The notes under the pieces were generated by a model. That model made no database searches. It had not been told where the DNA came from and worked only from the letters and a program-made list of their open reading frames with translations. Both the position numbers and the translations under genes were made by a program. 14,891 nt of DNA from Sulfurovum sp. (GTDB taxonomy: Bacteria > Campylobacterota > Campylobacteria > Campylobacterales > Sulfurovaceae): NCBI GenBank assembly GCA_030626265.1, contig DAOUPF010000005.1, forward strand, positions 1 to 14,891. The letters run 5' to 3'. Positions 3,577 to 7,149 of this stretch are shown here, one piece after another. Numbering within the stretch: the first letter of the stretch is position 1; each line of letters begins with the position of its first letter.

Positions 3577-3979
3577 TGGCTCTAGCTTGGGCAATCCTGG
3601 TCCTGGAGGCTACGGTGGCATACTAGAGTTTAGAGGCAAACGCAAAGAGTACTGCGGTGCAGATGCACATACCACAAACAATAGAATGGAACTCATGGGA
3701 GTCATAGCAGGACTAAGACTACTCAAAGAGCCTTGCAAGGTAGAGGTCATATCTGATAGCTCTTATGTAGTAAAAGCCATAAATGAGTGGCTAGAGGGCT
3801 GGATAAAAAAAAGCTTCAAAAAAGTAAAAAATATTGACCTATGGGAAGCATATATAGAAGCTGCAACCCAACATGAAGTAAGAGGCACTTGGGTACGAGG
3901 ACACAATGGTCACCCAGAAAATGAACGCTGTGACGAGCTAGCTAGAGATGAAGCAGAAAGGATAAAGGCATCACTATGA
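3548..3979 (+). CDS. rnhA: ribonuclease HI
   Basis: RNase HI cuts the RNA strand of RNA-DNA hybrids, removing R-loops and primer RNA. The 143-aa length is normal for the family. All four acidic catalytic residues are visible: D10 (YSDGS), E48 (NNRMELMG), D70 (ISDSSYV) and D129 (ERCDELAR, matching D134 of E. coli), plus the active-site-loop H119 in [10 protein letters not shown]. The basic handle region ([11 protein letters not shown]) is present. The start ATG lies inside the upstream TPR gene (29-bp overlap) and the TGA stop overlaps the rnc ATG in an ATGA motif. Both overlaps suggest translational coupling. The rnhA-rnc-aroC order is also found in Helicobacter pylori. Confidence 0.97.
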
Positions 3980-4671
3980 AAGATAACATAAAAATGAGTG
4001 ACTATACTAATCTTGAGAAGAGATTAAAATATATATTCAAAGATAAGCAGTTGATTATTGAGGCTTTGACTCACAAAAGTTATAAAAAGCCTTACAATAA
4101 TGAGCGGCTAGAATTTTTGGGTGATGCTGTACTAGACTTGATAGTGGGAGAGTTTCTATTTTTGGAGTTTCCTGAAGAAGCGGAGGGAGTACTCTCCAAG
4201 ATAAGAGCCTCTCTAGTCAATGAGAGTGGATTTACAAAACTAGCCAAACAGTTGAAGCTAGGCAAATATATATATCTATCCCCTGCAGAAGAGAGCAACG
4301 AAGGTAGAGAGAAGCCATCTCTACTATCTAATGCTTTTGAAGCAATTATAGGTGCTATGTATCTAGAAGCTGGACTAAAAACTTGTCAAGAGATAACTAT
4401 CAACCTTCTCAAAGAGACATACCCAAAGATAGACCTCAACACTCTATCCAAAGACTACAAAACTGCCCTCCAAGAGCTAACCCAAGCAACTCATGGTGTC
4501 ACACCTATATATGATATGATAGGTTCTAGTGGTCCTGACCATAAAAAAGAGTTTGAGATAGAAGTAGTTCTAAATGGTGAGTCCATAGCAAAAGCTCGTG
4601 GCAAAAGCAAAAAAGAGGCTCAGCAAAAAGCTGCCAAGATAGCACTTAAAAAACTAAAGGCAAATGCATGA
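3976..4671 (+). CDS. rnc: ribonuclease III
   Basis: RNase III cuts double-stranded RNA, processing rRNA precursors and structured mRNAs. The 231-aa protein has the family signature [11 protein letters not shown] at residues 42-52, catalytic D50, and E122 in [17 protein letters not shown]-terminal double-stranded RNA-binding domain (about 158-229) ends in the usual basic helix ([16 protein letters not shown]). N119 stands where many homologues have Asp, a known variant. The ATG at 3976 overlaps the rnhA stop. A second in-frame ATG at 3994 is possible and would give a more typical short N-terminus. The stop overlaps the aroC ATG in ATGA. The nearby minus-strand transcript at 6194-6461 is predicted to form long RNA helices, a natural type of substrate for this enzyme. 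Confidence 0.97.
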
Positions 4672-5741
4672 ATACTTTTGGAAAAAAGCTAACCCTCACT
4701 ACATTTGGAGAGTCTCATGGCAAAGCTTTGGGCTGTGTCTTAGATGGTGTACCTGCTGGGCTAGCTATAGATGAAGCATATATACAAAGTGAGCTAGATC
4801 GTAGAAAACCAGGAAAAAGCGAACTAGAAACTGGACGCAAAGAAGCTGATAGAGTAGAGATACTCTCTGGGGTATTTGAGGGATTGAGCACTGGTACTCC
4901 TATTGCCATGGTTATATTTAATACCAATCAAAAATCCAAAGATTATGACAATGTCAAAGATCTATTTCGTCCTGGACATGCTGACTTTACTTATTATCAC
5001 AAGTATGGTTTGCGTGATTACCGTGGCGGGGGGAGAAGCTCTGCGAGAGAAACTGCTGCTAGAGTCGCAGGCGGTGCTATAGCCAAATTAATCTTAGCAG
5101 AGATAGGTGTGGCTATCCAGAGTGGAGTTTGTGAAGTAGATGGAATCTCAGGTGAGATACAAGATTTTGAATATGCCAAAGGCTCCAAACTATACGCACT
5201 AGATCCAAATGTGGAGAAAGCTCAAGAGAGTGCTATCCTAACTGCCAAGAACAACCACAACTCTGTAGGTGGCGTAGTACTGACTACCGCTACTGGCGTA
5301 CCAATAGGTCTAGGTGAGCCTATATACTACAAACTTGATGCTACCCTAGCAGAAGCTATGATGGGAATAAATGCTGCAAAAGCGGTAGAGATAGGTGATG
5401 GAGTAGCCAGCACTCATCTCAAAGGTAATGAAAGTAATGATGAGCTGAATAATCAAGGGTTTGTAAGCAATCATGCTGGTGGTATACTAGGCGGCATCAG
5501 TAATGGTGACACTGTCATAGTAAAAACCCACTTCAAGCCCACCCCCTCTATCTTCCAAGAGCAAGATACTATTACAACGGATAACCAAGAGGTAAAGTGT
5601 AACCTAAAAGGTCGTCATGACCCTTGTGTAGCCATACGAGGCTCCATAGTATGTGAAGCAATGATGGCACTAACTCTAGCTGATATGGTACTACTAAATA
5701 TGGGTAAGAAAATGGAACATTTGAAGAGTATCTATAGTTAA
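4668..5741 (+). CDS. aroC: chorismate synthase
   Basis: AroC converts 5-enolpyruvylshikimate-3-phosphate to chorismate, the last shikimate-pathway step and the branch point for aromatic amino acids and folate. The 357-aa length is typical. All three family signatures are present: GESHGKALG near the N-terminus with H17, [17 protein letters not shown] near residue 125, and the C-terminal [10 protein letters not shown]. The enzyme needs reduced FMN; whether this one reduces its own flavin cannot be told by eye. The start overlaps the rnc stop by 4 bp. The TAA stop directly abuts, with zero bases between, the stop of the convergent yaiI gene, so there is no room for a separate terminator. Confidence 0.97.
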
Positions 5742-6191
5742 TTATCGAAAATATTTAGCTAAAAAAGCATTAAATTGATTTGCAAAAGCATGGGCATCTT
5801 TTGTTCCAAATGCTTTTGGTCCTCCTGTCATCTCTCCACTCTCTCTGATACTCTCCATGAGATTTCTCATAGCTAGATACTGCTTGATATTTTCTACACT
5901 GTATAGTTCACCTCTGTGATCTATGGCATGAGCATCTTTGCTGATGATATGATCTGCTAGAGGGATATCAGCAGTGATGACCAAGTCACCTTTTTCTGCT
6001 AGTTCTACTATATGTTTGTCCGCTTCATCTGCACCTTGCTCTACAATTATGTATTCTATATACTTTGATTTCCCAATATTTATCTTTTTGTTTGCTATAA
6101 CTTTTGTGCTGATTTTCAAACGCTCAATAGCTTTGAGGACTATAGGTTTGAGAAGGTTTGGAAAGGCATCACCATCTATAAATAAAGTCAA
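5742..6191 (-). CDS. YaiI/YqxD family protein (DUF188, PIN-like)
   Basis: The 149-aa protein matches the DUF188 family of small PIN-like proteins. It starts MTLFIDGDAFPNLLK, with the acidic pair D6/D8 typical of a metal-binding nuclease-like site. Other landmarks are QGADEADKHIVEL, the ITADIPLADHII strand and RGELYSVENIKQYLAMRN. The biochemical function of the family is not settled; a nuclease role is inferred from the fold. The start is TTG at 6191: an in-frame TGA sits two codons upstream, so no longer version exists, and MTLFIDGD aligns with family N-termini. A GAGGTGG ribosome site lies just upstream, inside the left arm of the 33-bp inverted repeat, so its access may depend on RNA folding. 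Confidence 0.88.
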   Translation of the reverse strand: MTLFIDGDAFPNLLKPIVLKAIERLKISTKVIANKKINIGKSKYIEYIIVEQGADEADKHIVELAEKGDLVITADIPLADHIISKDAHAIDHRGELYSVENIKQYLAMRNLMESIRESGEMTGGPKAFGTKDAHAFANQFNAFLAKYFR

Positions 6192-6193
6192 TT

Positions 6194-6226
6194 GTCACCA
6201 CCTCATCTATATACAGTAAGCTTTAA
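6194..6226 (+). repeat. left terminal inverted repeat, 33 bp
   Basis: It begins GTCACCACCTCATCTATATA and ends GTAAGCTTTAA. It differs from the reverse complement of 6429-6461 at three positions (6202, 6210, 6217). The ribosome-binding site of yaiI lies inside it on the minus strand. Confidence 0.9.
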
Positions 6227-6407
6227 TGCTGTGATTTTGTTCATAATCAAGGCAGGTTTTTAAAGGACTCGCCTTAGCGAATTCAAGAAAATCTAACGCG
6301 GAGTATGGGCGAAAGCACTGCACCCTACGGGAAGAAAGAGAAGAAGCAATCTGCAAGTAAAATAATCTTTGAATTAACCAGTTAGTCCTACATATTATTT
6401 TACTCAC
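6207..6407 (-). CDS. doubtful 66-aa ORF inside the inverted-repeat element
   Basis: A GTG at 6407 is preceded by AGGAG at 6418-6414, six bases upstream, which looks like a proper ribosome site. The frame runs 66 codons to a TAG inside the left terminal repeat, 15 bases before the yaiI start codon. Against it being a gene: the ribosome site and start both lie in an arm of the predicted 35-bp stem, the protein has no recognisable motif, and the frame simply follows the inverted-repeat arms. It may be a by-product of the element's structure, or a small element-borne peptide whose translation is controlled by folding. Confidence 0.2.
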   Translation of the reverse strand: MSKIICRTNWLIQRLFYLQIASSLSSRRVQCFRPYSALDFLEFAKASPLKTCLDYEQNHSIKAYCI

Positions 6408-6428
6408 AGCTCACTCCTTCTCTTTCTT
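6332..6428 (-). other. 35-bp nested stem-loop (predicted RNA structure)
   Basis: On the minus strand the arm 6428-6394 faces the arm 6366-6332 across a 27-nt loop. The outer 12 bp and inner 11 bp are perfect. In the middle 12 positions the DNA repeat matches at only six, but five of the six differences become G-U wobbles if transcribed leftwards, leaving one mismatch. Transcribed rightwards they would be A-C mismatches. The bias points to a structured RNA made in the same direction as ywbE and yaiI. Confidence 0.6.
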
Positions 6429-6461
6429 TTAAAGCTTGCTGTATTTAGATGAAGTGGTGAC
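6429..6461 (-). repeat. right terminal inverted repeat, 33 bp
   Basis: Read on the minus strand it begins GTCACCACTTCATCTAAATA and ends GCAAGCTTTAA. It encodes the last ten residues (VTTSSKYSKL) and the stop codon of the ywbE gene. A 13-bp palindrome, AGTGGT-G-ACCACT, spans the outer junction at 6453-6465. Confidence 0.9.
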
Positions 6462-6650
6462 CACTATCTCTTTTACTCTGCCTACCTCTTTGGTATCTAA
6501 TCGTACTTTTATACCATGAGGATGCATAGCAGAGTTGGTAAGTATTCTCTGGACGATACCATAAGTGATATAGCCTGAGCTTTGGTCTTCTTTGAGGACG
6601 ATACCTACATTTAGACCTACTTTTATATCCGCTCTTTTTGTACCTACCAT
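6429..6650 (-). CDS. ywbE: YwbE family protein (DUF2196), C-terminus supplied by a repeat element
   Basis: The 73-aa protein matches the small DUF2196/YwbE family: KRADIKVGLNVGIVLKEDQ, then GIVQRIL, then HPHGIKVRLDTKEVGRVKEI. The molecular function of the family is unknown; the KOW-like basic beta character suggests nucleic-acid binding, but that is inference. Known members end at about the GRVxEI position (residue 62 here). The extra VVTTSSKYSKL is therefore unusual, and its last ten residues are encoded entirely by the 33-bp terminal repeat of the adjacent element. The ATG at 6650 lies one base after the stop of the 165-aa gene, with an AAAGAG ribosome site inside that gene, so the two are co-translated. 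Confidence 0.82.
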   Translation of the reverse strand: MVGTKRADIKVGLNVGIVLKEDQSSGYITYGIVQRILTNSAMHPHGIKVRLDTKEVGRVKEIVVTTSSKYSKL

Positions 6651-6651
6651 T

Positions 6652-7149
6652 TTAGCTCTTTGATTTATAGTTTAGTATTTTCTTGGTATTATCTACTGAA
6701 CAGAAAAACAGCATATCAAAGATTGGGGTAAGTTTGGTGCTTGTCTCACTAACAATCTCAAATGGCTGAAACATAAAACCATCACCATCTTCTCTATGAG
6801 CAGGTTTGACTGTAAATACTATAGGCTTCATAGTTCTAAGTAAATTTAATACTTTTTTATAGCCTTTTGTATCTATTTTAGGTAGCAGATTTCCCTGCTT
6901 ATTTCTATCTGTTCGAGCTTTGATGAGTAGCTGTAGCTTATCGTTAAATATCACTTTATTCCACTTGACTTTAGCAACCCCTACTGTAAATTCTCTATTT
7001 GCTGATATAAGTGGGTGAGGTTTTGTCTCTCTGATGGCTTCTAAAAGCTGGAGGAAGAAGTTTACTCCTCCTATACTCTTGGCATAATTGTTTAGCTGCT
7101 CGCAGTACTGTTCTTTCTCTTCGTCACTTAGGCTATTAAAATCGCACAT
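6652..7149 (-). CDS. conserved-looking hypothetical protein, 165 aa
   Basis: I do not recognise this protein. It is soluble (no signal peptide or membrane helix), basic, with an acidic N-terminal stretch (SDEEKEQYCEQLN), a helical segment (VNFFLQLLEAIRET) and a likely beta-rich middle (EFTVGVAKVKWNKVIF, KLQLLIKART). A GDGFMFQPF motif follows at about residues 122-130. The start ATG has AAAGAGAT just upstream and a TATAAT box at 7176-7181, so it is very likely expressed. It is followed after one base by ywbE, which suggests a shared function or at least coupled translation. Confidence 0.75.
   Translation of the reverse strand: MCDFNSLSDEEKEQYCEQLNNYAKSIGGVNFFLQLLEAIRETKPHPLISANREFTVGVAKVKWNKVIFNDKLQLLIKARTDRNKQGNLLPKIDTKGYKKVLNLLRTMKPIVFTVKPAHREDGDGFMFQPFEIVSETSTKLTPIFDMLFFCSVDNTKKILNYKSKS

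Follow-up and report, generated by a model that had tools for sequence, protein, structure and literature searches.

Nezha of the cyanobacteria is a MITE of the IS630/Tc1-mariner type, and the proteobacterial ERIC and Correia (NEMIS) elements are single palindromes of approximately 100 to 160 bp with a TA duplication, the Correia RNA being cut by RNase III. REPIN and REP-BIME hairpins have a size of 20 to 40 nt and are connected to a RAYT (Y1) transposase, and intervening sequences (IVS) in rRNA are known from Campylobacterota. An element of 268 nt with 33-bp inverted ends, at positions 6194 to 6461 of a stretch of 14,891 nucleotides from Sulfurovum sp. (contig DAOUPF010000005.1, all of it referred to as “the window”), shares features with each of these systems. 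Like the IS630/Tc1-mariner MITEs, the family of this element is short and gene-less, has terminal inverted repeats and a TA duplication, and a like-ended IS630-family element exists in one relative; unlike them, the family is divergent over a phylum, is of near-constant length, and has a covarying two-arm interior with no shown IS origin, and no partner was found in most bearers. It shares the intergenic imperfect palindrome and the TA duplication with ERIC and Correia but forms a four-way junction in which the two arms are related to each other. REPINs and REP-BIMEs likewise contain two inverted hairpins, each with its own strand, but the arms of the window family are about 97 nt long instead of 20 to 40 nt and are accompanied by long terminal repeats and the TA duplication. 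As with the rRNA IVS, family members are located inside three 16S genes of one genome (G136), but elsewhere the family is found mostly between protein genes.

The window copy is located between ywbE and yaiI and not in an rRNA gene (Table 1). The preliminary description had claimed inverted ends with 30 matches in 33 positions, and this was confirmed by re-reading of the sequence and by an inverted-repeat search, which gave 3 mismatches between 6194-6226 and 6429-6461. That description was correct for the ends but missed a second inverted repeat of 35 bp inside the element (6332-6366 and 6394-6428, 83%), the two-arm interior, and the wide recurrence of the fold. In the family, the left terminal repeat begins with ATTACCGCACCAA, and in the window copy, it begins with GTCACCACCTCAT. 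The only open reading frame of at least 60 aa that is wholly within the element is a mechanical 66-aa frame, and the element is therefore without a transposase, as had been stated before. The internal loop of arm 1 is composed of AAGGC (6249-6253) and TAACGC (6294-6299), and its tip helix of GGACT (6265-6269) and AATTC (6280-6284), with one G.U and one C.A opposition. In the vicinity, a probable RNase III gene (rnc, as judged by eye) is present at window positions 3976 to 4671, approximately 1.5 kb from the element, and a 165-aa open reading frame upstream of ywbE (6652 to 7149) has no Pfam match.

Table 1. Features of the element and its neighboring genes in the window
Feature	Position	Strand	Basis or remark
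yaiI / DUF188 (PF02639), downstream gene, start 2 nt outside the element	5742..6191	-	ORF and Pfam
Left terminal inverted repeat, 33 bp	6194..6226	+	Pairs with 6429-6461 in folds
Arm 1, 96-nt hairpin	6227..6322	+	Folding, alignment, covariance model R1
Mini-hairpin CCC-TAC-GGG, 9 nt, third branch of the four-way junction	6323..6331		Structure and covariation
Arm 2, 97-nt hairpin, oriented opposite to arm 1	6332..6428	-	Inverted repeat, strand folding
Right terminal inverted repeat, 30/33 to the left one	6429..6461	-	Inverted-repeat search, alignment
ywbE / DUF2196 (PF09962), upstream gene	6462..6650	-	ORF and Pfam

The ywbE frame now extends into the element by 10 codons, with its end at 6429. 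When positions 6194 to 6461 were cut out, ywbE read KEIVN, followed by a TGA inside TTGA, so that the earlier arithmetic of a TGA overlapping the TTG start of yaiI was correct. In relatives without a gap, the last codons of ywbE are directly followed by the TGA that overlaps the yaiI start, and in the same-genus genomes G001 to G003, ywbE ends with KEIV or KEIL and then the stop codon; the extra N of KEIVN therefore looks like a remnant left by the insertion. When 60 genomes were searched for ywbE, 30 loci were obtained, the window's own among them, and yaiI was found downstream of ywbE in 18 of the 29 other loci and not nearby in 11. The element was absent from the junction in all 18 relatives with both genes together. 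The gap between the genes was 8 nt or less in 13 of the 18, 17 to 30 nt in 3, and 92 or 199 nt in the remaining two; among four same-genus genomes, the junction was tight and overlapping in three, with a 17-nt gap in one. Since the element is absent from the same-genus junctions, the insertion most likely postdates the split of the window's species from these relatives. The gaps of 92 nt (L069 in G014) and 199 nt (L070 in G031) were filled with other sequence, which looks palindromic by eye, and neither genome had a BLAST match to the element. Given these other inserts, the junction appears as if it were a favored landing place.

The preliminary description had proposed that a small non-autonomous element was inserted at a gene junction and had suggested looking for the empty junction in relatives. 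This reading is supported by the 18 empty junctions together with the dispersed full copies that have the same ends. Of the two features named there as speaking against mobility, the single copy holds for the window's own genome, which has one full copy in an assembly of 489 contigs with 80.6% completeness, and conservation at this junction in distant relatives does not. A 52-bp relic of arm 2 on another contig of this genome (L003:1501-1552, G000:C91) suggests that a second copy probably once existed.

BLAST detected kin of the element in 32 of the 98 other genomes searched, spread across further genera and families of this order, with some matches being partial and some stopping at contig ends. 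Full-length copies were cut from 35 of 50 loci, including that of the window, and 15 loci without recognizable ends were skipped; 31 of the 35 copies formed the alignment A1, from which four were left out as near-duplicates or for their odd lengths. Other genomes have full copies with the same ends at unrelated places, and the best identity of related elements to that of the window is 83% (global) or 85% (BLAST). A pattern scan of named genomes gave at least 120 stretches, and the 80 listed were all titled Campylobacterota or Epsilonproteobacteria, including Sulfurovum, Nitratifractor, and Sulfurospirillum. The exact end pattern ATYACCGCACCAA was present in 21 of 60 genomes, with some matches in genes, compared to 4 matches in all for the reversed-pattern control, and the 15-mer GGGCACCTCTAAWAA was present in 16 of 18 chosen genomes and its control in none. 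The 14-mer GACTTCTTGCAAAA occurred in 70 of 298 genomes, 53 times in G324, with most of the 70 having one or two matches that are possibly due to chance. The same two-arm architecture was found with other ends, namely, GGGCACCTCTAA, GACTTCTTGCAAAA, AAGTCCTTAAT, AAGTACCTA, TAAGTAATGAGG, ATACCA, and more; six such elements had a global identity of 64 to 68% with that of the window, compared to 56 to 60% for shuffled sequences. R1, a covariance model of arm 1 built from 24 arm-1 sequences, matched 51 of 298 Campylobacterota genomes, the window's own included, and 20 of 59 genera; at most 13 candidates were scored per genome, so that copy numbers are minima.

The window element had no match in plasmid or phage records, two other family members had none in plasmid records and one member none in phage records, and the exact core pattern was not found in viral contigs. 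Member L240 matched one record of the plasmid collection, Sulfurovum mangrovi NZ_CP087125.1 (77.7% over half the query, E value of 2e-36). The two-arm copy on this record (L421:1494-1699), with R1 scores of 64.2 and 25.6 bits on opposite strands, is itself unannotated and is located in the gap between the annotated genes icd and mdh for isocitrate and malate dehydrogenase. Open reading frames extended across the joined flanks in 12 of 35 loci, which first suggested gene interruption; the two loci that were read closely (L245 and L259) are instead junctions of two tandem genes. A short element of about 130 bp with GGGCACCTCTAAAAA ends and a different interior was seen near one family copy (L012:1762-1893).

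Five copies in the complete genome G034 are 97 to 99% alike at different places, which points to recent movement, and five copies in G026 are 89 to 94% alike. The edges of the window copy are TG and CC instead of TA. The earlier statement that no target duplication is visible stands for this copy, whereas three other copies show a TA duplication when compared with empty sites. Such sites were sought for ten insertions, and 13 comparisons over five insertions were read, leaving out L264, L033, L037, and L038. The duplication was clean in three of these five insertions, L263 compared to G042 (96% identity) and G368, L261 compared to G042, and L036 compared to G374. L262 and L268 had empty counterparts and no clean TA, and the six other comparisons of L036 and that of L263 with G367 were too diverged to read. 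The L265 site in G042 was not empty, having two matches approximately 160 bp apart with other sequence between them. TA was present at both edges in 57 of 87 distinct elements compared to 4.6 expected, a count raised by the self-complementarity of TA within a stem, so that the empty sites are the evidence. The 16S members of G136 have no TA at their edges.

A candidate for the mobilizing enzyme comes from G061, which contains a 1,113-bp IS630-family element (DDE_3, L226:1466-2578) with the ends ATTACTCCACTAACTAAATAC and T and A as left and right flanks, respectively. A second IS630-family copy in this genome (Pfam DDE_3) begins with ATTACCGCACCAATTAAAT, the same 13-mer, which also starts a 101-bp element without genes or arms at seven sites (L207 to L213). 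Ends shared with an IS630-family element were seen in G061 only. DDE_3 was found in 14 of the 298 phylum genomes, 7 of them over the cut-off, and in 8 of 51 model-positive compared to 6 of 247 model-negative genomes (Fisher P = 0.0006), or 4 compared to 3 over the cut-off (P = 0.018), both values being uncorrected for kinship. Only 4 of 30 chosen genomes had DDE_3 over the cut-off, and none was found in the window's own genome (80.6% complete) or in the complete genome G034; most hosts therefore lack a recognizable mobilizer, which may have been lost. Ten exact 13-mer matches in G034 were known copies or one site in a gene, with no larger transposase-bearing element. When the open reading frames in 20 stretches around GACTTCTTGCAAAA sites were read by eye for an autonomous partner, no transposase was recognized, and several of these sites were the ends of elements of about 134 bp. 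A 3,969-bp facing pair of GGGCACCTCTAAAAA was rejected as one unit because other genes lie between the two ends, the left of which has a closer partner at a distance of 121 bp.

The reading preferred here, with a probability of roughly 0.7, is that positions 6194 to 6461 are an old copy of a TA-inserting non-autonomous element that was moved in trans by an IS630 transposase and whose interior is kept for its single-stranded arms. The element would insert at TA dinucleotides and duplicate them. A Tc1/mariner-like IS630 transposase, supplied in trans, would recognize the outer 13 bp or so (of the TTACCGCACCAA type) and move the element. The interior would be retained because each arm matters in its single-stranded form: in a transcript crossing from either side, the well-pairing arm would emerge first, and the ends would close a duplex of approximately 33 bp. 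The RNA of the element may be a substrate of RNase III and be trimmed out of the host RNA or isolated within it, which would explain why the element is tolerated at operon junctions and, in the case of one genome, within 16S rRNA.

Arm 1 of the window folded with -30.8 kcal/mol on the plus strand and -15.8 kcal/mol on the minus strand, and arm 2 with -43.0 kcal/mol on the minus strand and -27.2 kcal/mol on the plus strand. Arm 1 was better on the plus strand and arm 2 better on the minus strand in 46 of 46 elements, the 31 A1 copies and 15 divergent ones; 16 divergent loci were given, L244 was dropped for its length, and one-armed and direct-arm elements were left out. With inverted arms of opposite strand bias, a transcript from either side meets the well-pairing arm first. 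R1 scored arm 1 with 106.4 bits at 6224-6322 on the plus strand and arm 2 with 27.4 bits on the minus strand and 9.5 bits on the plus strand; the hairpin shape alone gives some R1 score, because the reverse strand of arm 1 of the window scored 30.8 bits. The second arm was found by R1 in 25 of 27 divergent loci, 24 times on the opposite strand and once on the same strand (L249), and not in L256 and L289. In plain DNA alignments of arm 1 with the inverted arm 2 in six copies, 0, 11, 16, 44, 53, and, for the window, 223 of 300 shuffles scored as high, and the consensus arms scored 27 compared to a shuffle mean of 15 (standard deviation of 2.6, maximum of 28 in 1,000). Arm 2 is an inverted relative of arm 1, as judged by the structure model rather than by the weak plain DNA alignment. 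Solitary hairpins of approximately 120 nt (L395 to L400, L402 to L408, and others) in f10, f8, and f20 genomes have, by eye, an AGGC/AACG internal loop; they are model matches of 113 to 121 nt in other genera with up to 10 per genome (G271), and two of them (L405 and L407) are located in a 16S-23S spacer.

Arms that are related, inverted in 24 of the 27 loci, and strand specific in all 46 elements would also be expected of a REPIN-like system, in which the two inverted arms are the mobile unit, an HUH/Y1-type single-strand enzyme reads each hairpin, and the terminal repeats are secondary. The arm fold common to elements with other ends and the occurrence of this internal loop in solitary arm-like hairpins of other genera agree with this, but the empty sites place the TA duplication at the terminal repeats and not at the feet of the arms, the arm-less 101-bp element has the same kind of ends at its seven G061 sites, and the arms of L249 are in direct orientation. 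Such a system appears unlikely.

The whole element has a fold energy of -106.2 kcal/mol on the plus strand and -109.8 kcal/mol on the minus strand for its 268 nt, compared to averages of -55.2 and -57.8 kcal/mol for 200 dinucleotide shuffles, none of which was as good (z of -11.3 and -10.8). The terminal stem of 33 bp, arm 1 (96 nt), the mini-hairpin (9 nt), and arm 2 (97 nt) together form the four-way junction. In A1, 96.8% of the cells pair, and two-sided changes were present in 70 of 104 pairs compared to 34.5 in the shuffles, none of which (0 of 500) was as high, a count favored by the derivation of the consensus structure from the same alignment; sliding the partner columns by one to three positions decreased pairing to 38 to 48%. 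Among single-sequence folds of 79 distinct elements of 255 to 280 bp, 72 on the plus strand and 67 on the minus strand had three branches enclosed by the terminal stem, with branch sizes of typically 96 to 97, 9, and 99 nt and no unpaired junction base among the folds listed. The length was 263 to 276 bp in 79 of 87 distinct copies, which rests partly on searches favoring 255 to 280 bp; independently of this preference, 13 of 14 pairs of facing GGGCACC ends among the matches listed for G034 were 265 to 266 bp apart and one 129 bp. Shorter relatives had 177 bp (L235) and 209 bp (L255), and others had 160, 167, and 177 bp. Selection acting on the fold itself is the simplest explanation for why one fold and nearly one length are kept while sequence and ends change.

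Rfam contained no family at the gathering score for window positions 5700 to 7000, and in 24 loci, only rRNA and tRNA reached this score. A known RNA family was rejected, as the best scores were those of microRNA models that fit the long stem, far under gathering; integron attC and retron RNA were considered and dropped. The strong covariation and the nearly constant length in divergent genomes, together with the strand-specific folding, might nevertheless indicate a multicopy noncoding or regulatory RNA, the fold of which reflects a host function while mobility is incidental. One terminator-like site at the right end on the plus strand (6453-6465, compared to 0.2 expected) would agree with such an RNA, but a promoter scan of 6150-6510 gave 1 site compared to 0.7 expected, the positions are scattered, the ywbE-yaiI junction of close relatives is without the element, and model matches occur in only 51 of the 298 genomes, with no Rfam family. 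This explanation is judged to be quite improbable. A chance palindrome or an assembly artifact at the junction, which the single full copy in a fragmented assembly of 489 contigs might suggest, has next to no probability, being already refuted by relatives that share the ends and the fold and reach 83% (global) or 85% (BLAST) identity, and by the fold z of about -11.

In G136, all three copies found (L284, L285, and L286; C1) are inside 16S rRNA genes and represent a 270-bp member; in the Rfam 16S alignment, 272 nt take the place of 7 nt of the model near its position 210. By their position, these members are an intervening sequence. The reading as a TA-inserting element moved by IS630 may be extended further only in a tentative manner, with the odds somewhat against it: the interior would be an ancient strand-specific pair of related hairpins, maintained as a single fold over the phylum (20 of 59 sampled genera) with several TA-inserting ends and surviving by RNA excision, and the Campylobacterota 16S IVS would be members of this family.

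Small gene-less repeats are usually seen as short-lived leftovers of transposons, and this family keeps its fold and a near-constant length instead. It provides a large collection from nature in which to study how a parasite can remain harmless through the shape of its own RNA, and a testable answer to the origin of the rRNA intervening sequences. If this is true, the insertions in 16S rRNA would be a mobile family caught at a place where RNA excision makes an insertion into rRNA harmless.
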